From positions 1 through 64,000 of the forward strand of contig QBML01000024.1 of assembly GCA_003242085.1 (NCBI GenBank): DNA of 64,000 nucleotides, read 5' to 3'. The notes under the pieces were generated by a model. That model was not told the DNA's origin. It saw nothing but the letters and a program-made list of their open reading frames with translations, and ran no database searches. The position numbers were made by a program, and so were the translations under genes. This document shows positions 8,640 through 64,000 of this stretch, piece after piece; position 1 is the stretch's first letter; every line of letters starts with the position of its first letter. Source of the stretch: Pseudanabaena frigida. GTDB taxonomy: Bacteria; Cyanobacteriota; Cyanobacteriia; Pseudanabaenales; Pseudanabaenaceae.

Positions 8640-11600
8640 ATGATGGCTACAACAATTTTGATTGTGGACGATTTCGAGAGCGATCGCGCTATTTACAAGC
8701 GTTATCTTCAATCAGACACAGAATATTTCTATCGGTTCTTCGAGGCGGATACAATAGAAGAGGGAGTAAAATTGTGGCGATCGCATCGTCCTGAAATCGT
8801 TCTGTTAGATATAAATTTGCCTGATGGCAATGGCTTAGAATTTTTAGAAATTATTAATGAAGGGCGTTCAGGTGAAAGATTTCCTGTGATTGTGTTGACA
8901 GGACAGGGCGATGAGCGAATTGCCGTACGAGCAATGAAGCTAGGAGCTGCCGACTATTTAATAAAAAAGGATATTACGGCAGTTTTACTTGCTATCTGTG
9001 TCGGTCAATTGCGCGATCGTAATAACCTCAACTGTCAACTAGCTCGGTTGCGACAACAAGAAGTAGTGATTTCTAAAATTGCTCTAAAAATTCAAAAGCA
9101 TCTCAATTTAGAACTGATATTGAATACGGTCGCGCAAGAAGTGCGAGACTTTTTAGCCGGAGATCGCGCCGTTGTCTACCAGTTCAATCCAGACATGAGC
9201 GGAATGATTGCCGCTTCAGCGAGCATTCATCCTTGGCAAACCTGCTTAAATCTTCAAATTGAAGACACCTGCTTTCGAGACAATCTCGGAGGAGCCTATC
9301 GCGAGGGTAGAGTCTTCTCAGCTTCTGATATTTACAATGCTAACCTAACAGAATGCCATATTAAACTTCTAGAACAGCTTCAGGTACGGGCAAATCTTGT
9401 AGTTCCTATCCTCCGCTCCAGAGATAAAGATCGTTCTCTTTGGGGATTGCTGATCGTGCATCAATGTTTATCTCCGCGAAATTGGGAAGAGACGGATATT
9501 CGGTTGCTTCAAGAGTTGTCGGTACAATTAGCGATCGCGATCCAACAAGCTGAACTCTTTCAAAATCTCCACACTCTTAATATATCTCTAGAGCAAAAAG
9601 TCGAAGAGCGGACTAAAGAACTGAAATTCAGTGAAAATCGCTTTCGCGCAGTTTTCGAGAATATGTTTCAGTTTATTGGCTTGCTTACTCCTGATGGCAC
9701 TATATTGGCAGTAAACCAGATCGCCCTCACGTCGGCGGGAGCTACGGCTGAGGATTTAGTTGGTGTTCCTTTGTGGGAAACCTATTGGTGGCATATTTCC
9801 CTAGAAGCTCGGCAAGATTTACAGCAAGCGATCGCTAGGGCTGCTCAAGGAGAGTTTATTCGCTACGACGTAGATGTATTGGGAGTAGACGGGCAGATCA
9901 TGTCCATTGACTTTTCACTGCGTCCGCTTCGAGATGAGACGGGAAAGGTGGTGATGCTGATTCCTGAAGGGCGAGATATTAGTGAAGCCAAGAAATCTAA
10001 GCAACAACTCCATCAACTTAATCAAGAGCTAGAAAGCAAAGTTAAAAGTCGGACTATAGAACTTCAAGTAAGAGAGAGAGAACTAGAGAAACTATCGCAA
10101 CGCCTTGCCTTGTCGCTAAAATCTGGAGCAATCGGCTGTTGGGAATGGGACATTATCAAGGACAACAGATTTTGGGATGCCCGCATGTACGAACTTTTCG
10201 GGGTCTCAGGACAATCCTTTATACTTGACCCTAATGATATTTGGTTAATTGCGCTACATCCTGATGACCGTAAAGTCACTGAGACCGCCCTCAAAAACGC
10301 TATCTTAGGAAAAACGGAATACTACGATACCGAATTTCGGATCTTCTATCCTGATCGCAGTATTCACTATATTAAAGCCTTTGGAGTAGTGGTTCGCGAT
10401 CCTGTGGGTAATCCTCTCAGCATGACTGGGATTAATTTTGATATTAGCGATCGCAAACAAACAGAAATTCAATTGCTTCAAACCAATGAAGAACTGATGC
10501 GTGCCACAAGACTCAAAGACGAGTTTCTAGCCAACATGAGCCACGAACTTCGCACCCCACTTAATGCCATCTTAGGACTCTCAAATGCACTTTCAGAACA
10601 GATCTTGGGCTCTCTGAACGAAAAGCAATTAAAATCGATCGCTACAGTCGAATCAAGTGGCGAACATCTGCTCTCACTGATTAATGACATTCTCGATCTA
10701 TCGAAAATGTCTTCAGGCATGATGGAATTAAGCATTGAATCTGTCTCAATCAAAAATCTCTGTGATTCCAGTCTTGTCTTTATCAAACAGCAAGCGTTTC
10801 AAAAGAGAGTGCGAATTATCAGTAATATTCCTAAGAATGTAAACAATATTAATATCGAAGAGCGTCGTATCAGACAGGTATTGATTAACCTGCTTACCAA
10901 TGCCGTCAAATTTACTCCAAGTGAAGGAGAGATAGGTCTTCTAGTCGCTTTTGGTTGCGGTGATATGTGGCAAGGTAAGGCAACGATTCCTCAACGCATC
11001 AAGATAATGAATTCGCCGACGATTGTATTTCAAGTAGTAGATACTGGTATTGGCATTACCTCCAACGACTTGCAACGACTCTTCCAGCCCTTTGTGCAGG
11101 TGGATAGAGCTCTTAACCGTCAATATGAAGGTACTGGCTTAGGACTAGCCTTAGTCAAGCAGATTGTCGAACTTCATGGAGGTCAGGTTATGGCTGAGAG
11201 TAAAGTTGGGGAAGGTAGTTGCTTTACAGTTGCCCTACCCTATGAAATGTCCCAATCTAGCTCGAACGCATCTGCACCAACTGCCATAACCTTACAGCCA
11301 CCGATCGTAAATTCTGACGATGCGGCGATCGCACCGCTTATTTTACTCGCCGAAGACAACGAGGCAAATATCCAGACCTTTACCTCTTATCTGACTGCAA
11401 TCAATTACCGCATAGTTATTGCCAGAGATGGAGAAGAGGCGGTTGCTAAAGCTAAAGAACATTCTCCAGATATCATCCTCATGGATATTCAAATGCCAAA
11501 AATGGATGGTCTAGAAGCGATTCGTCTGATTCGTACGGATAAAAAAATTGCGGCAATTCCGATTATTGCTCTTACGGCTCTGGCTATGGAAGGCGATCGC

Positions 11601-49042: not shown

Positions 49043-50752
49043 TTATAAATCTGTTTGATCGGCTTTACGAAGGACAGACATTTTAACTTTACTGTCAGTT
49101 AAAACTTTTTGAGCCGTTTCTTCTTGTTGACTAAAGATCTCTAACTCTGCTTGCTCGATCGCTAGTTGAATTTCAAGAGCTTTAATTTGAGCCTGTACTA
49201 GCGATTGTTGCTGCTCAAGGCGTAGTTTTTTACGGTCAAATTCTTGCTTGCGGTTGAGTTGGGCTAATTTCTCTTGGGATTGTTGCGCGACTCGGGCGGT
49301 TCCAGTCAGGAAGTTACTCTGTCCTAAGTACACATCTACCAACTCTATGCCATGACTGGTTAAGACAAACTCACGCACTTGATTAGAATGTTGCATACCG
49401 CGAGACTTAAGAACATAAAGAGTCCGATTGCGCTCCCCATTAGTTTCTATAGTGCGAAGCTCCAACCAAGTATCCATCAGCGATGACACCCCCAATTCTG
49501 TATGCTCTAAAGGCGCACCGCTCTGGAGAAGGTTAGTAAAGAAAACAGTGATTTGTTGGGATTTAAACAAGTCGATCAAGCGCATGAGAAAGTTTTTAGT
49601 TTGGTTCAACGTTCCAGTGGTGGCAAGATTACTCATTGGATCGATTACCACAGAACTAGGCTGAAATTCCCTAACCCAAGTCTCGATCGTTTGCAAACGC
49701 ATTTCCAATCCATAGGCAGTGGGTCGTACCGACTCAAATCTCAATAGTCCATTCTTGATATGATGGGTCAAATCAAGTCCAACAGAGCGTTGATTTCTCA
49801 AGATTTGTTGAGGAGCCTCCTCAGTTGCCAAATACAGACAGCGTTCGCCGCGATCGCAGGTTGCCGATGCAAAAAAACCAGCTAATGTCGTCTTACCAGT
49901 TCCCGCCATTCCCGTTACCAAAATACTGCTACCCCGATAGTAGCCCCCATTATCTAACATTCCATCAAGGCGAGAAATTCCTGTTGAGACTCGTTCAGCA
50001 GATATTTCATAATCTAGACCAACTGAGGTAATCGGTACGACAGAAATACCATTTTCCTCAATCAAAAATGGGTATTCATTAGAGCCATGCCGAGAACCTC
50101 GATATTTAAATATTTGCAGATAGCGAGTTGTGATTTCCTCCGCAGTTCGCTGCTCTAATCGAATTACACAGTCTGAGACATATTCCTCAAGTCCCTGACG
50201 GGTTAAGTCATTTCTTCCCCGCTCTCCTGTGATAATCGCAGTTACGCCCTGTTCCTTTAACCAGCCAAACAAACGGCGCAGTTCAGCCCTTACAATATTT
50301 GCGTTATTTAGACCAGCGAACAAAACTTCAATCGTATCTAAAACTACCCGCTTTGCCCCGATTTCGGCAATAGCGCTGCCTAGCCTGATAAATAAGCCTT
50401 CAAGATCGTAATCTCCAGTTTCCTCTAGACCAATAGGATTGATATAAACATGGTCGATGATCAGTTTGCCATCAGACACTAACTGATCGAGATCCCATCC
50501 TAGAGACGTGACATTTTGGATGATTTCCTCGGCGGTTTCTTCAAAGGTCATCAATACGCCTGCTTCGGCATATTCAACTGCGCCACGTACCAGAAACTCA
50601 ACTCCAAAAAGAGTCTTACCACAACCTGCCGAGCCACAGACTAGAGTCGGTCGTCCTTGAGGTAATCCACCACTAGTAATTTCGTCTAGTCCTCGGATTC
50701 CTGTCGGACATTTGGGCAATTGGCGTTTGAAATTCTTGATTATTTCGACCAT
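49043..50752 (-). CDS. kaiC: KaiC-family double-RecA ATPase/autokinase with coiled-coil tail
   Basis: A 569-residue KaiC paralogue with two RecA-like halves. CI has GSAGCGKT (about residues 40-47) and paired glutamates in MTFEETAEE; CII has GMAGTGKTTL and TEEAPQQ. The phosphorylation segment reads LEHTELGVSSLMD: Thr418, Ser423 and Ser424 align with T426, S431 and T432 of the clock KaiC, so the last site is Ser instead of Thr, as in KaiC2-type proteins. After about residue 480 the A-loop region of KaiC1 is replaced by a long coiled coil (about 495-560). The kaiB-like gene follows. The divergent neighbour, 230 bases away, is a CBS-GAF hybrid kinase. It is likely a KaiA-independent signalling ATPase. 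Confidence 0.9.
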   Translation of the reverse strand: MVEIIKNFKRQLPKCPTGIRGLDEITSGGLPQGRPTLVCGSAGCGKTLFGVEFLVRGAVEYAEAGVLMTFEETAEEIIQNVTSLGWDLDQLVSDGKLIIDHVYINPIGLEETGDYDLEGLFIRLGSAIAEIGAKRVVLDTIEVLFAGLNNANIVRAELRRLFGWLKEQGVTAIITGERGRNDLTRQGLEEYVSDCVIRLEQRTAEEITTRYLQIFKYRGSRHGSNEYPFLIEENGISVVPITSVGLDYEISAERVSTGISRLDGMLDNGGYYRGSSILVTGMAGTGKTTLAGFFASATCDRGERCLYLATEEAPQQILRNQRSVGLDLTHHIKNGLLRFESVRPTAYGLEMRLQTIETWVREFQPSSVVIDPMSNLATTGTLNQTKNFLMRLIDLFKSQQITVFFTNLLQSGAPLEHTELGVSSLMDTWLELRTIETNGERNRTLYVLKSRGMQHSNQVREFVLTSHGIELVDVYLGQSNFLTGTARVAQQSQEKLAQLNRKQEFDRKKLRLEQQQSLVQAQIKALEIQLAIEQAELEIFSQQEETAQKVLTDSKVKMSVLRKADQTDL

Positions 50753-50982: not shown

Positions 50983-53900
50983 GTGAACACAACATATAGT
51001 CTTCATACATTAGAGCAGGCGATCGCTCATAATCTGTTAGTTGTTAGCGTGGAGTCTTCGCTGCGGGATGTCGTGCGATTAATCAATCAAGCCCGTCATC
51101 GTGATTCTGTGCATTCAAGACAACTAGGCGAAAGAACTGAATTGCCTATAAGTTGCGTCTCCTGTGTTTTGGTTATGGCTGAGGCTAGACTGGTGGGAAT
51201 CTTAACTCAGTCCGATTTACTGCGGTTAATGGTCATGGACTTAGACATTAACGAAATTAAGGTTTCAGAGGTGATGACTCAACCTGTTGTCACAATGCGA
51301 CAGTCCGAATTTCAAGACGTGATTACACCGCTCAATCTGATTAGTCAGCATCACATTAGTCATTTGCCGCTGCTAAATGAGCATAATTATCCGATTGGAA
51401 TTATTACCTTAAAAGAGCTAATCAAGATTGCTGATGTTACAGTGCAACAAAGTCAAATTCAACAGATTGAGTATGAATCATTACTAACGGCGATCGCCAA
51501 TCGCATTCAAGCATCACTCGACCTTCAGACTATTCTGGATAGTTCGGTTACTGAAATTCGCCAGTTTTTACAAACAGATCGCGTGATTGCTTATCGTTTT
51601 GAACCCGACTGGAGCGGCATCGTCGTCGCAGAATCAGTCATTCGTGAATGTGATTCATTGCTCGGTAAAGTTCTCACCGATCCGCACTTTGGCTCTGCGA
51701 TGGTGGAGCCTTACAGAAATGGACGGATTCAAGTAACAGATGATATCTATGTGGGATTGACTGATTGCCACACCAAGTTTTTGGAACGTCTTCAGGTAAA
51801 AGCGATCGTAGTCGTGCCGATTTTGCAAGGAGATCGGCTTTGGGGATTGCTAGCCGCACAGGAATGCTTACAACCACGCTTTTGGGATAGATCGTCGGTT
51901 GACCTGCTGCAACAACTTGCCACACATATTAGTATTGCAATCCAGCAATCCAGCACAATGTTGCAGTTGCAGCAACTCAATCAAGGGTTGGAAAGTAAAA
52001 TAGAAGAGAGAACAATAGAATTAGCAAATAGTGAAAATCGTCTAAATCTGATTGTCTCTAATGTCTCTGAAGGTATCTTAATTGCTAATCGCGAAGGACG
52101 TATTGTTTTTGCGAATCCATCGGCAGCCAGAACGTTTGGAATGTCTATTGACCAACTCATTGGATTAAATATTGGTATACCCAATGTTCTAAATAATCAA
52201 TTTGAAATTACTTACTTAGCTCATGATGGAAATATCGGAGAAAGTGAGATGCATGTTGTGATGATTGAGTGGGATCGACAACCTGCATATTTGATCTCTT
52301 TGCACGACATTACAGAACGCCTGCAAGCTGAGATGAAACTGCTAAAAATTCAAGTAGATCTGGCGGAAGCTCAGCAAATTGCCCATGTTGGTAGTTGGGA
52401 GATGGATACGATCGCACGGACAATCTCTTGCTCAGATGAAATGTTTCGCCTCTTAGGACTTGAGCCTCGTCAAGCTGAGCAATCCATTGAAAATCTTGCT
52501 CGATATATTTGTCCACGAGACCGCGATATCCTAGAGCATCTGGTAGAACGCGCCATTCAATTTGGCGAACCCTATGAATTAGATGTACAGATTACTAGAG
52601 TTGATGGTTCAACTGGCTATCATTTTGTCAAGGGAACACCAAAATATAATGCTGTAGGCGAAGTAACCCACTTGTTTGGTACTGCGATGGACATTAGCGA
52701 TCGCAAAGCCAATGAGTCTAAGTTGCGCAGATACGAGCGGGTAGTGGCTGCTACTACTGATGCGATTATTCTTTACGATCGCAACTACAGATTCCAATTA
52801 GTTAACCAAGTCTATCTCGATTGGCATAATAAAAGACCAGAGGAAGTGATCGGTCATACTATAGATGAACTTAAGAGAGAAAGCTTTAAAAATATTATTC
52901 AGCCTAGACTAGATCTCAGTTTGGCAGGCGAAGTTCAACGCTACGAAGAGTGGTTTGACTATGGAGATGGCTGTCGGCGCTTTGTTCGAGTTTCCTATTC
53001 TCCCTACATCGAGATTGATGGCAGCATTACTGGGGTGCTAGGTAGTCTGCACGATCTGACCGAACTTAAGCAAATTGAAGAATCCCTACGTAAGAGCGAA
53101 GAACGCCTAAGTCGTTATTTCGATCAGCCTCTGCTCGGTATGGCAATTAGCAATCCTGACAAGAGTTGGCAAGATGTTAACAATTGTTTGTGTAATATGC
53201 TCGGTTACTCCCACGATGAAATGCTCCAAAAAACATGGGCTGATATCACCCATCCTGAGGATTTAGAAGTAAATCTCATTAACTTCAATAAAGCTTTGAC
53301 AGGAGATTTGGAAGGATATGTGATGGATAAGCGCTTCATTCGCAAGAATGGAAGTACCATTCACACGATTATCTCGGTGCAATGTTTCCGCCATCCCGAT
53401 CGGACTGCAAATTACTTTGTGCTGATGGTGCAGGATATTAGCGATCGCAAACAAGCGGAGTTACAACTGCGACTAACTAATGAAGAGCTCTCCCGTGCTA
53501 CCCGTTTGAAGGATGAGTTCTTGGCAAATATGAGTCACGAACTTCGCACCCCTCTTAACTCCATCCTTGGCATGACTGAAGCTCTGCAAGAGCAAATTTT
53601 CGGCGGTATCAATGAGAAACAACGTAATGCTCTACAGACCGTTGAACGTAGCAGCGAACATTTATTGATGCTGATCAATGACATTCTTGATGTCGCCAAA
53701 ATTGAATCGGGACAGATTGAGTTAGATTTTGCTCCTACTGATATAGCTTATCTCTGCCAATCTAGTCTTGCCTTCATCAAGCAGCAAGCTCTCAAAAAAC
53801 GTATTCAGTTAGAAGTTAAACTCCCCAAAAATCTACCCGACCAAATGTTGGACGAACGGCGCATTCGTCAGGTATTAATTAATTTACTCAATAATGCGAT

Positions 53901-57459: not shown

Positions 57460-60400
57460 ATGATCGCAACTAGCCCTCTAATCCATAAAAAATTAATGTC
57501 GGCGATCGCTCGCAATCCGCCTTTGGTGTCACCAGATACCACAGTCATGGCAGCGATCGCAATGATGGGTGAAACTGGTGCAAACTATGTGCTAGTAGTA
57601 GAGAATCTATCTGAAAAGAGTGGTTTGAACGGCATTTTGACTGAACGAGATATTGTTCGCATTATCATCCAGCCTATACCATTAGACCAGTTGCCAATTC
57701 ACGCGGTGATGAGTCATCCAGTAGTTGCTATCCAAGAATCTACATTTACTGATATTAACGAAGCTCTAGCCCTATTGCAACAGCATCGCATTCGTCATCT
57801 GCCTGTGCTGGATGATGGCGATCGCATCGTTGGTTTGCTAGACCAAAGTGTCTTAATCGAGATGGCTAATCTAGCCGATCGCCAACAATCCGAAGCGACA
57901 CTACAGCAACTCAACCAAGATTTAGAAAAGAAAGTAGAACAACGGACTGCCGCTTTGCAAGCTAGCGAAGCAACTATTCGCACCATGTTGGACGCGATTC
58001 CCGATTTATTGCTGCGACTTCAGCGTGATGGTACTTGCTTGGCTTACATCAAATCAGGAATTGAGACAGAAAGTTTTCTGCCGATTGTCAATCATATTTC
58101 GGAAATCCTACCACCAAAATTGCTCCAGAAACAGTTGCAAGTTATCGAGCAAGCAATCACTACAGATGAATTGCAAGTCTATGAGCAGCACTTCCTCAAA
58201 CAGGATTGCGTAGTCTATGAAGAAGTGAGAATGCTAGCAATTAACGATCGAGAAGTTTTGGCAATTGTGCGGGATATTAGCGATCGCAAACTTGCCGAAG
58301 CAGCATTACAGCAACTCAACCAAGATCTCGAAGATCGAGTAAAAAGGCGTACTGCGGCTTTAATGAAGAGTGTGCTGCGTGCAAGCCAAGCACAACAGAT
58401 AGCCCATCTTGGCGATTGGAATCTAAATCTACACAATCAGAAAGTGATCTGGTCTGATGAAGTCTTCAAAATTTTTGGGCTTACCCCCGATCGACCACAA
58501 CCCACCTATGAAGAGTTACTCAACTACTATCCACAGGACGATCGAGAGCGCCTTACTCATTTCGTAGATAGAGCTATTCAGTATGGGGAATCCTATGCAA
58601 CAGACCTAAAGATTGTTCGAGCTGATGGTTCTTTTGGCGACATTTTTGCTCAAGCCGAACCCATCTATGATGAATCAGGAAAGGTGTGTGGATTGTTTGG
58701 AATTGTGATGGACATTAGCGATCGCAAAGCCGACCAAGAAGCTCTAAAACGTAGCGAAGAACGCGCCCATGCCACTCTATTGGCATTACCAGATCTGGTA
58801 TTTCGTGTTAACGGAGATGGTGAATATATTGACTTTTTAACATCTCCCCAAGGGAAGAATCTAGTCGATCCTCAACAGGTAATTGGCAAAAGTATTTTTG
58901 ATTCTTTGCCAGCAGATATCATACCATCGCATTCAGACAATAAATACACGGCTCTTCAGCAAGCACTTACTACGCAAACTTTGCAAACATACGAACAGCA
59001 GGTTTGGATTGATGATGAACTTCGTTACGAAGAAGTACGTGTTGCTCCATGCAACAATAATGAAGTTGTCTTTCTAATCCGCGACATTAGCGATCGCAAA
59101 CTTGTCGAAAAAGCTCTATTGGAATCTCAACAATTTATTCAAACTGTGGTTGACACCGTCCCTCTCTCATTATTTTGGAAAAATCGAGAGTCTGTCTATT
59201 TAGGATGCAATCAGCAATTTGCCAAAGTGCTTGGGTTGAAATCGGCTGAAGAGATTATTGGTAAAACTGATTTCGATCTTCCATCGACACAAGCTGAGGC
59301 AATCGCCCATCGTGCCGACGATCGGCACATCATGGAATCTGGTCAAGCCAGACTGGGGATCGAAGAAACGATGACTCTGTCTAATGGTGAACGGCGATGG
59401 GTAGAAACCCATAAAGCTCCATTTCGTGATTGGACAGATTATATTATTGGTTTAGTAGGTATATCGATGGATATCACTATTCGCCGCCAAAATGAAGCGA
59501 GACTAAAATATCAAGCAGAGCAGGAACGCATTCTTGGAGCGATTACCCAACGAATGCGATCGTCTCTAGACTTGACAGAGATTCTCAATGCTACCGTTGA
59601 GGATGTCCGTGAGGTCTTGCATTCAGACCGAGTGCTGATTTATCAGTTAAGTTTAGGAGAGTCAAGGTCTGCTCTGGCTGAATCCACTTCGCCAAATTGC
59701 TCAACACTTCTGAATATTGTCTTCCCTGAGGATGCTATCTCTCAAGAGAGCTACGATCGTTATGCCCAAGGAGGTGTGTTTATACTTGGCGATCGCGAAG
59801 CAGATAAGCATTTAGTCTCACCCCGTTTGGTTGAATTCCTCACAGAACTCCAAGTTAGAGCCGCACTCGCAGTTCCTATTATTCAAGATCGAATCCTTTG
59901 GGGATTGCTGATTGTGCATCAATGCGACTTTCCACGCCATTGGCAAGACATAGAAATAAATTTACTCCAACAAATTGCCAACTGGTTGGCGATCGCCATT
60001 CAACAAGCCAGTCTCCACGAGCAAATTCAGTCCGAACTATTGGTACGACAACAAACAGAAGTAAAGCTAATCAAAAGTAACCAAGAGCTTTCCGTCTTTA
60101 ATGAAGAACTCGGTCGTGCCACCCGACTGAAGGACGAGTTCTTAGCTAACATGAGCCATGAACTCCGCACCCCTCTTAATGCCATTTTGGGAATGACTGA
60201 AGGTCTACAAGAGAAAGTCTTTGGCGTTATAAATGAGCGCCAACTCAAAGCATTACAAACCGTAGAACGTAGCAGTAATCATCTTCTGGAGTTAATCAAC
60301 GATATCCTCGATATCGCCAAAATTGAATCAGGGCAAATGATACTAGACTTCAACCTCTGTAATATATCTCCACTCTGCCAATCCAGTATTGCCTTCATCA

Positions 60401-61505: not shown

Positions 61506-61566
61506 CACCAAAATCTAAAAAAGAGTTGCGGTGATTTGCACCGCAACTCTTTTTTAGATTTTGGTG
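61506..61566. repeat. Perfect 28-bp-stem palindrome
   Basis: Arms 61506-61533 and 61539-61566 are exactly complementary around a 5-base loop. The stem contains AAAAGAGTTGCGG, close to the inner stem of the element at 61856. The left flank (CTATAGTCGGTTATGTT) resembles the left outer arm of family B, but no matching right arm follows, so it may be a truncated copy. Confidence 0.8.
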
Positions 61567-61855: not shown

Positions 61856-61971
61856 TATAGCAGTAGCCAATTATGTTTGGACAAACCCAAAACCGAAAAG
61901 AGAGTTGCGGCGCTACGCGCCGCAACTCTCTTTTCGGTTTTGGGTCTTACCTGGAAATGGCTACCGCTATA
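61856..61971. mobile_element. 116-nt palindromic element, family B, copy 2
   Basis: Outer arms TATAGCAGTAGCCA (61856-61869) and TGGCTACCGCTATA (61958-61971) are inverted with 13 of 14 matches; inside is a perfect 28-bp stem (61885-61912 with 61918-61945). The outer arms are close to those at 16040-16151 while the inner stem is largely different. Confidence 0.7.
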
Positions 61972-61999
61972 TTTCACAGATGTTGCTTAGAAAGTGATT

Positions 62000-64000
62000 A
62001 TGAACATGGAAAAACATACGCTATCTGAACTAAAGTCGGCAATTGTTCGTAATCCTTTAGTAGTTACACCTCAGTCAACTGTCATGGAGGCGATCGCTCA
62101 AATGAGCAGCGTGCGATCGCAATGTACCGCCAATAAAACCGCAACTAGCCAACTTGATGAGATGGCGATAGAAGTACGTTCAAGTTGCGTGTTGGTAATG
62201 GAAAATGAGAAAGCGATCGGCATTATGACCGAGCGGGATGTCGTGCGTCTGAGTGCCGAACAGCAAGCACTCGATCGCCTAGAAATACGTGAAGTAATGA
62301 CTTCGCCCGCGATCGCTTTGAAAGATTCTGCCTTCACTGATTTTTTTGCGGCAATTACTCTACTTCAGCAGCAAAAAATTCGGCATTTGACGATCGTGGA
62401 CGATCGAGATTGCTTGGTGGGAATTGTCACCCACGAAAGTTTGCGTCAAACCTCACGACCAATTGATTTAATGCGCTTGAGGATTGTGTCTGAGGTGATG
62501 ACCCATGACGTAGTTTGTGCTACGCCAGATGATTCGATGTTGGCGATCGCCAAACTGATGGCAACCCACCACATTAGCTCGGTGATGATTGTAAAAGTGA
62601 GCGATCATTCCAGAGAATCCTTGCAAATTCCTCTAGGGATGTTGACTGAGCGCGATATTGTGCAATTTCAAGCCTTGGGTCTAGATCTGCAAAGCTGGAA
62701 GGCTGAGGCGATGATGAGCAGCCCAGTCTTTGCGGTTAAGTCAGAGGACTCCCTATGGCTGGTGCATCAAATTATGGAGCAGCACTTCATCCGTCGGCTA
62801 GCCGTGACGGGTCAGCAAGGAGAATTATTAGGGCTTGTTACCCAAACTAGTTTGCTGCAAGCGCTTAACCCGATCGCACTCTACAATTTGGCGGACGATT
62901 TAGAAAAGAAAGTGTTGCGCCTAGAAGCAGAAAAGTTTGCCTTGCTAGAAAATCGCAACGTGGAATTGGAAAAACAAGTGGAAGCTCGCACGATCGCGCT
63001 CAAAGTTAAAGCGGAGCGAGAGAAGTTAGTCTCAAAGATGGCGTTGCAAATTCGCTCCTCCTTGAGTTTACAGACCATTCTCAATGAAGCTGTGACACAG
63101 GTAAGGCAATTATTAGCTTGCGATCGCGTCAATATTTGGCAGTTTGAAAGCGATTGGCAAGCAAGTGTTGTGGCAGAGTCCACAGACTCAGAATTTTCAT
63201 TAGTGGGAGCGCGAGTTAACGATACTTGCTTTAAACAAGCAATGTCTGAAATTTATCGACAAGGAAAAATTCGGGTAGTCTCAGATATCTATGAGACAGA
63301 AATGGCAGATTGTCATCGCGAGATGCTGATTCGCATCCATACTCGCGCTAAGGTAATAGTCCCGATCATCTGCGATGACCAGCTTTGGGGGGTGATGAAT
63401 ATCTCTGAAAGTCAACATCCGCGCATATGGGACGCAGAAGAGATCGATCTACTCCAAGACATTGCCGTACAGGTAGCGATCGCCATTCAACAAGCCACTA
63501 CTCACCAACAATTACTAGAAGAACTAATTGAGCGCAAAAAAGTTGAACTCAGTCTCCAAAAACTCAATCTATTCTTAGAACAAGAGGTCGAAGAACGCAC
63601 TAAAGCCCTTCGGGCGAGTGAAGCCAACATTCGCGCTATGGTCGAGGCAATTCCAGATTTACTGCTACGGGTTACCCAAGATGGGGAATGTTTAGACTTT
63701 ATCAACTCCGATCACCAAGACCAATTTATAAAGATCCATGAGAATATTGCAGAGGTACTGCCACCAGAGTTATTAGCAAAGCAGCTTACGGTGATCAATC
63801 AAGCGATTGCTACAGGCGATTTACAAGTATATGAGCATCAATTCTCTAAACACGATCATTTATGTTTTGAAGAAGTACGGATCGTGCCCATTAATTTAAA
63901 TGAAGTATTGATTATTGTGCGGGATATCACTAAGCAAAAACAAGTAGAAGCTGCCTTACATACCAGTGAAACCCGATTTCGTCGGGTATTTGAATCTAAC
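62000..64000 (+). CDS. Sensor protein (partial): double CBS pair-GAF(cyanobacteriochrome)-PAS...
   Basis: An open frame of 667 codons that runs off the right edge. Two CBS pairs (about residues 10-150 and 155-295; GIMTERDVVRL, LVGIVTHESL, GMLTERDIVQF, LLGLVTQTSLL) are followed by a coiled coil and a GAF domain (about 350-500). This GAF has a DXCF motif (DTCF, Cys410) and the canonical Cys438-His439 pair (ADCHREM), 28 residues apart, the layout of a DXCF cyanobacteriochrome. A PAS domain of the AIPDLLLRV...FEEVRIVP type (about 535-655) and the start of another follow. By analogy with its three neighbours the missing part should be HisKA-HATPase-REC, but this is not seen. Confidence 0.9.
   Translation, partial: MNMEKHTLSELKSAIVRNPLVVTPQSTVMEAIAQMSSVRSQCTANKTATSQLDEMAIEVRSSCVLVMENEKAIGIMTERDVVRLSAEQQALDRLEIREVMTSPAIALKDSAFTDFFAAITLLQQQKIRHLTIVDDRDCLVGIVTHESLRQTSRPIDLMRLRIVSEVMTHDVVCATPDDSMLAIAKLMATHHISSVMIVKVSDHSRESLQIPLGMLTERDIVQFQALGLDLQSWKAEAMMSSPVFAVKSEDSLWLVHQIMEQHFIRRLAVTGQQGELLGLVTQTSLLQALNPIALYNLADDLEKKVLRLEAEKFALLENRNVELEKQVEARTIALKVKAEREKLVSKMALQIRSSLSLQTILNEAVTQVRQLLACDRVNIWQFESDWQASVVAESTDSEFSLVGARVNDTCFKQAMSEIYRQGKIRVVSDIYETEMADCHREMLIRIHTRAKVIVPIICDDQLWGVMNISESQHPRIWDAEEIDLLQDIAVQVAIAIQQATTHQQLLEELIERKKVELSLQKLNLFLEQEVEERTKALRASEANIRAMVEAIPDLLLRVTQDGECLDFINSDHQDQFIKIHENIAEVLPPELLAKQLTVINQAIATGDLQVYEHQFSKHDHLCFEEVRIVPINLNEVLIIVRDITKQKQVEAALHTSETRFRRVFESN

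Follow-up and report, generated by a model that had tools for sequence, protein, structure and literature searches.

The DXCF subfamily of cyanobacteriochromes, to which the GAF domain of TePixJ belongs (PDB 4fof, 4glq and 3vv4), links C3-1 of its bilin to the canonical cysteine, while the cysteine of the DXCF motif attaches to C10 during photoconversion (PMC11284453). The TePixJ bilin is surrounded by H498, W499, Q526 and N535 (PMC6955287). CBS domains are absent from the solved chains of TePixJ, which is itself a receptor of the chemotaxis type. A cyanobacteriochrome-type GAF is also found in the dual sensor histidine kinase 6oap. Tandems of CBS domains are represented by MJ1225 (3kh5), SSO3205 (3ddj) and AMPK gamma (4eak), with nucleotide present in the SSO3205 (AMP) and AMPK (ATP) entries, and none of the three is fused to a photosensory GAF or to a histidine kinase. 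The helices that join sensory domains, CBS among them, have been discussed (PMC1592074), and a survey of cyanobacterial kinases counts CBS domains and draws no link to cyanobacteriochromes (PMC9953108).

The gene described here combines these elements in a single chain. It lies at the right edge of a 64,000-nucleotide stretch (the window) that covers positions 1-64000 of one contig of a 5.39 Mb genome in 67 contigs, and the edge cuts the gene, which is whole in the source contig. The reading frame runs from a GTG at 61994 (1307 residues) or an ATG at 62000 (1305 residues) to a stop at 65917, and residues are numbered from the ATG. The preliminary description, made from the truncated gene, had placed four CBS domains ahead of a photosensory-type GAF and called for the rest of the gene. 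Recovery of the remainder bears this out, with four CBS stretches in an intact chain and neither a stop nor a frameshift beyond the window edge, so that a truncated or frameshifted gene is ruled out. The features of the gene are as follows.

61994..64000, + strand, continuing to 65917 (stop included): gene for the protein with four CBS domains, GAF, PAS and hybrid histidine kinase; likely start ATG 62000 or GTG 61994
62042..62254, + strand: CBS1, with G-I-M-T-E-R-D (residues 74-80); Asp80 kept in 73 of 75 relatives
62285..62446, + strand: CBS2, with G-I-V-T-H-E-S, whose ribose-binding position lacks an acidic residue
62486..62668, + strand: CBS3, with G-M-L-T-E-R-D (residues 213-219); Asp219 kept in 73 of 75 relatives
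62705..62866, + strand: CBS4, with G-L-V-T-Q-T-S
62870..63055, + strand: predicted continuous helix, residues 291-352, from CBS4 to the GAF (AlphaFold2 model, shallow alignment)
63068..63487, + strand: GAF of cyanobacteriochrome type (Pfam GAF 1.5e-20; closest solved structure 6oap, 6e-40; TePixJ 4fof, 1.5e-26)
63221..63232, + strand: DTCF motif with Cys410, the second cysteine position, equivalent by alignment to Cys494 of TePixJ
63308..63316, + strand: DCH, that is Asp437, Cys438 (canonical bilin-linking position, equivalent by alignment to Cys522 of TePixJ) and His439
63350..63352, + strand: Lys451, at the position of Asn535 of TePixJ; the lysine marks the CBS-linked lineage in the alignment of relatives

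The four CBS domains are followed by a helix of about 60 residues, one GAF, PAS domains, HisKA, HATPase and a receiver, and the full chain gives Pfam matches to CBS, GAF, PAS, HisKA, HATPase_c and receiver. The presence of HisKA, HATPase_c and receiver in one chain identifies a hybrid histidine kinase. Among relatives whose records carry a name, the nearest (65% over its CBS part) comes from a Pseudanabaena metagenome-assembled genome, and the source organism is therefore probably a Pseudanabaena.

The surroundings of the gene hold further proteins of this kind. Three additional CBS-containing hybrid histidine kinases are arranged in tandem ahead of it, between 50983 and 61293 of the window. 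The paralogue GAF at 51466 displays DPHF and DCH, with the second cysteine replaced by histidine, and the one at 59503 has neither cysteine; cysteine loss is thus easy in such a setting. A KaiC-like ATPase gene (49043-50752, - strand) is divergent from the CBS-kinase cluster. As a general partner it was rejected, since among the 12 regions searched a KaiC-like gene was near such a CBS4-GAF gene elsewhere only at one locus of a genome of the same family (L202, G194). The gap ahead of the gene contains two near-perfect palindromes (AGTTGCGG...CCGCAACT) at 61524-61548 and 61903-61927, whose pattern has 52 sites genome-wide against 0 for the reversed control, and they are therefore copies of a dispersed palindromic repeat. 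No Rfam features were found in the 64-kb window.

The GAF displays two cysteines at the bilin-linking positions of TePixJ. As previously described, DTCF (Cys410) and ADCH (Cys438-His439) are 28 residues apart, and they lie at 63221-63316, with codons at 63227-63229 for Cys410, 63311-63313 for Cys438 and 63314-63316 for His439. When the window is translated in all six frames, the strict pattern D-x-C-[FY]-x26-C-H is seen at two places, one in this GAF and one in the GAF that starts at 9054, whereas 50 residue-shuffled versions of the frames contain none. The second of these GAFs (9054-9575) has DTCF and ECH at equal spacing and is probably the first case of the preliminary description. When the 189-residue GAF region is compared with solved cyanobacteriochromes, the matches are 6oap (6e-40), miRFP670nano (1.3e-28) and TePixJ 4fof (1.5e-26), and the predicted fold superposes on TePixJ 4glq with TMt 0.89 and rmsd 1.3. 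Through a bridging relative, Cys410 and Cys438 align with Cys494 and Cys522 of TePixJ, and Asp408 and His439 match too; in the AlphaFold2 model Cys438 is within a predicted helix, residues 437-445. The domain thus shares with TePixJ the GAF fold, two cysteines 28 residues apart, the Asp of DXCF and the His after the canonical cysteine. Its relation to bilin-binding cyanobacteriochrome GAFs by sequence and fold and its canonical Cys-His pair make it a domain of cyanobacteriochrome type, and the second cysteine in D-x-C-F (DTCF) is that of the DXCF subfamily. The dual sensor histidine kinase 6oap, which is the best match both by sequence and by Foldseek and likewise has its GAF in a histidine kinase, differs in the Tyr of DQYF that aligns with Cys410, so that the second cysteine is absent, and in leaving the CBS part of the query unmatched. 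A bilin is likely to be bound by this GAF, and its synthesis is possible in the organism, as four ferredoxin-dependent bilin reductases and two heme oxygenases are encoded in the genome.

When 388 genomes of the class were searched with the CBS-GAF front end, 169 had matches at E<=1e-60, some without a GAF. A GAF close behind the CBS region was found in 75 distinct proteins from 58 genomes, the source genome included, the most distant of which may carry fewer than four CBS domains. The position of Cys410 is Cys in 68 of them, that of Cys438 also in 68, and both are kept in 65. A GAF that no longer binds bilin, and that serves as a nucleotide-relay or dimerisation domain with the cysteines as inherited remnants, would agree with the neighbouring paralogues that have lost one or both cysteines and with the missing His-Gln pair, yet it is highly unlikely given that, in the alignment of these 75 divergent proteins, Cys410 and Cys438 belong to the better conserved positions of the domain.

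The same relatives discriminate between the four CBS domains. G-x-x-T-E-R-D is near-invariant in CBS1 and CBS3, and the differing form of the motif in CBS2 and CBS4 is likewise conserved. The Asp of GxxTxxD contacts the ribose in the CBS family, and the nucleotide-type motif G-x-x-T/S-x-x-D is present in CBS1 and CBS3 and absent from CBS2 and CBS4. MJ1225, SSO3205 in its AMP-bound form and ATP-bound AMPK gamma are among the solved CBS proteins nearest to the tandem in sequence or fold; superposition of the whole tandem on these structures is poor (rmsd about 21-23). The AlphaFold2 model, built from a six-row alignment, is of moderate quality overall (mean pLDDT 70.8, pTM 0.39). The GAF is well predicted, parts of the CBS region are weak and the arrangement of the CBS domains is of low confidence, and the model served only for fold class and for the linking helix. 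A CBS tandem acting as a dimerisation or structural scaffold behind a bilin light sensor, with no nucleotide sensing in the physiological range, would fit the lack of an acidic residue in CBS2 and CBS4 and the occurrence of either one pair or two among close GAF relatives, which makes a fixed number of ligand sites unnecessary. Nevertheless, a pure scaffold would not require that GxxTERD be kept in CBS1 and CBS3 of nearly all 75 relatives, and this role is regarded as quite unlikely.

In contrast to the cysteines, the residues that surround the bilin in TePixJ are replaced in this GAF: His498 by Ala414, Trp499 by Met415, Gln526 by Met442 and Asn535 by Lys451, while the conserved His-Gln becomes Ser469-Glu470. 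This residue set is a feature of TePixJ and not a proven requirement of the DXCF subfamily. As aligned, the D-ring side of the pocket departs from that of typical DXCF domains. In the Lys451 lineage the usual "HQC" is often "[ST]ES", and Lys451 and Glu470 occur together above expectation (21/37 against 3/38; Fisher p 5e-6 over the 75 proteins, relatedness not corrected). With these residues in place of the usual ones, the photocycle cannot be assumed to equal that of TePixJ, nor should colours be predicted from it. The initial label of DXCF cyanobacteriochrome therefore fits the cysteines, but, given Lys451 and Ser469-Glu470, it is less apt as a guide to the colours. The same substitutions would also fit a bilin-binding GAF with no TePixJ-type two-cysteine switch, in which Lys451 and Glu470 give another photocycle or the pigment acts as a redox or dark-state sensor. 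Fixation of Lys451 in the close lineage and its tendency to co-occur with Glu470 argue for such a domain. Against it, the residues that dual-cysteine photochemistry would call for, namely the two cysteines together with Asp408 and His439, are retained in the same lineage, and on balance this departure seems unlikely.

The occurrence of 75 CBS-plus-GAF proteins across 58 cyanobacterial genomes excludes an oddity of the source genome. Because these proteins had been picked by similarity to a CBS-GAF query, a second search, of 291 genomes, used only the GAF as query, and the loci of the 29 best relatives were inspected. CBS domains lie directly ahead of the GAF in 25 of the 29 (four in 20, one pair in 5), and the other 4 have no CBS or a remnant; the linkage is thus not an artefact of a query containing CBS. 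Both cysteines are kept in 22 of the 29, and in 16 of the 18 closest (above 50% identity). Two same-genus GAF relatives (L186 and L187) are without CBS in the stretch examined, and the CBS-linked lineage is therefore patchy. L186 (G011:C22), at 53%, has an in-frame TGA inside the match region. In a FastTree of the CBS-linked GAFs and the other GAFs of the source genome, with only the latter as outgroup, the query GAF groups in a monophyletic lineage that is almost wholly CBS-linked, and nearly all Lys451 proteins fall in one clade of CBS-linked domains. CBS-linked GAFs with Asn451 and His-Gln-Cys intermingle with GAFs not linked to CBS, so that CBS domains have probably joined such GAFs more than once. 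The combination is widespread in cyanobacteria and not unusual in their genomes. The original remark that it was not known as characterised stands in so far as a search confined to open-access full text found no description of a CBS tandem with a dual-cysteine cyanobacteriochrome GAF, but the arrangement itself is common. Each part is known, and the arrangement is widespread and apparently uncharacterised.

The output domains attached to this front end vary. Most of the 11 CBS-GAF relatives scanned are histidine kinases, usually hybrid; one (L161:2736-6092) has four CBS domains and a dual-cysteine GAF fused to GGDEF-EAL with no kinase, and another (L158) ends after a PAS. The 17 Hpt matches in the source genome make a phosphorelay possible.

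The reading we prefer, at roughly even confidence, is a dual-cysteine cyanobacteriochrome hybrid kinase in which light acting on the GAF and an adenine-type nucleotide bound to the CBS domains together determine the output. The gene product would be soluble, a hybrid histidine kinase whose sensor is composite, in which the four CBS domains, as two Bateman pairs, would bind the nucleotide, most likely at the G-x-x-T-E-R-D sites of CBS1 and CBS3, and the long helix would relay the state of the tandem to the GAF. The GAF would carry a phycocyanobilin-derived bilin with ring A held by Cys438, and reversible addition of Cys410 to C10 would make one of its forms absorb blue or violet light. Nucleotide and light would together set the conformation of the helix-linked dimer and hence the kinase, and both signals would travel by way of the PAS domains to HisKA/HATPase and to the receiver at the C-terminus, which would make the output dependent on energy state and light together. 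Gene integrity, domain order, conservation of the cysteines and of CBS1/CBS3, recurrent CBS linkage and the bilin genes are the observations on which joint control is based; from them we infer bilin attachment, nucleotide binding, colours, coupling and phosphorelay partners. The pocket differences from TePixJ, the cysteine loss in the cluster paralogues and the low-confidence CBS model (pTM 0.39) argue against it. A broader proposal, put forward tentatively and with less confidence, is that a distinct cyanobacterial lineage of dual-cysteine GAFs, with Lys at the Asn535 position, has co-evolved with the CBS tandem as a standing detector of coincident light and energy, mostly on hybrid kinases and at least once on GGDEF-EAL.

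Photosynthetic cells must weigh light against energy charge. With sensors of adenine-nucleotide type placed on a dual-cysteine photoreceptor in one chain, the integration of light and energy would become directly testable in a single purified protein. The finding also draws attention to a lineage of GAF domains that has apparently not been studied and in which the D-ring pocket is altered, and, with at least 58 genomes of the sample carrying it, the arrangement is common enough to be of interest beyond the source strain.
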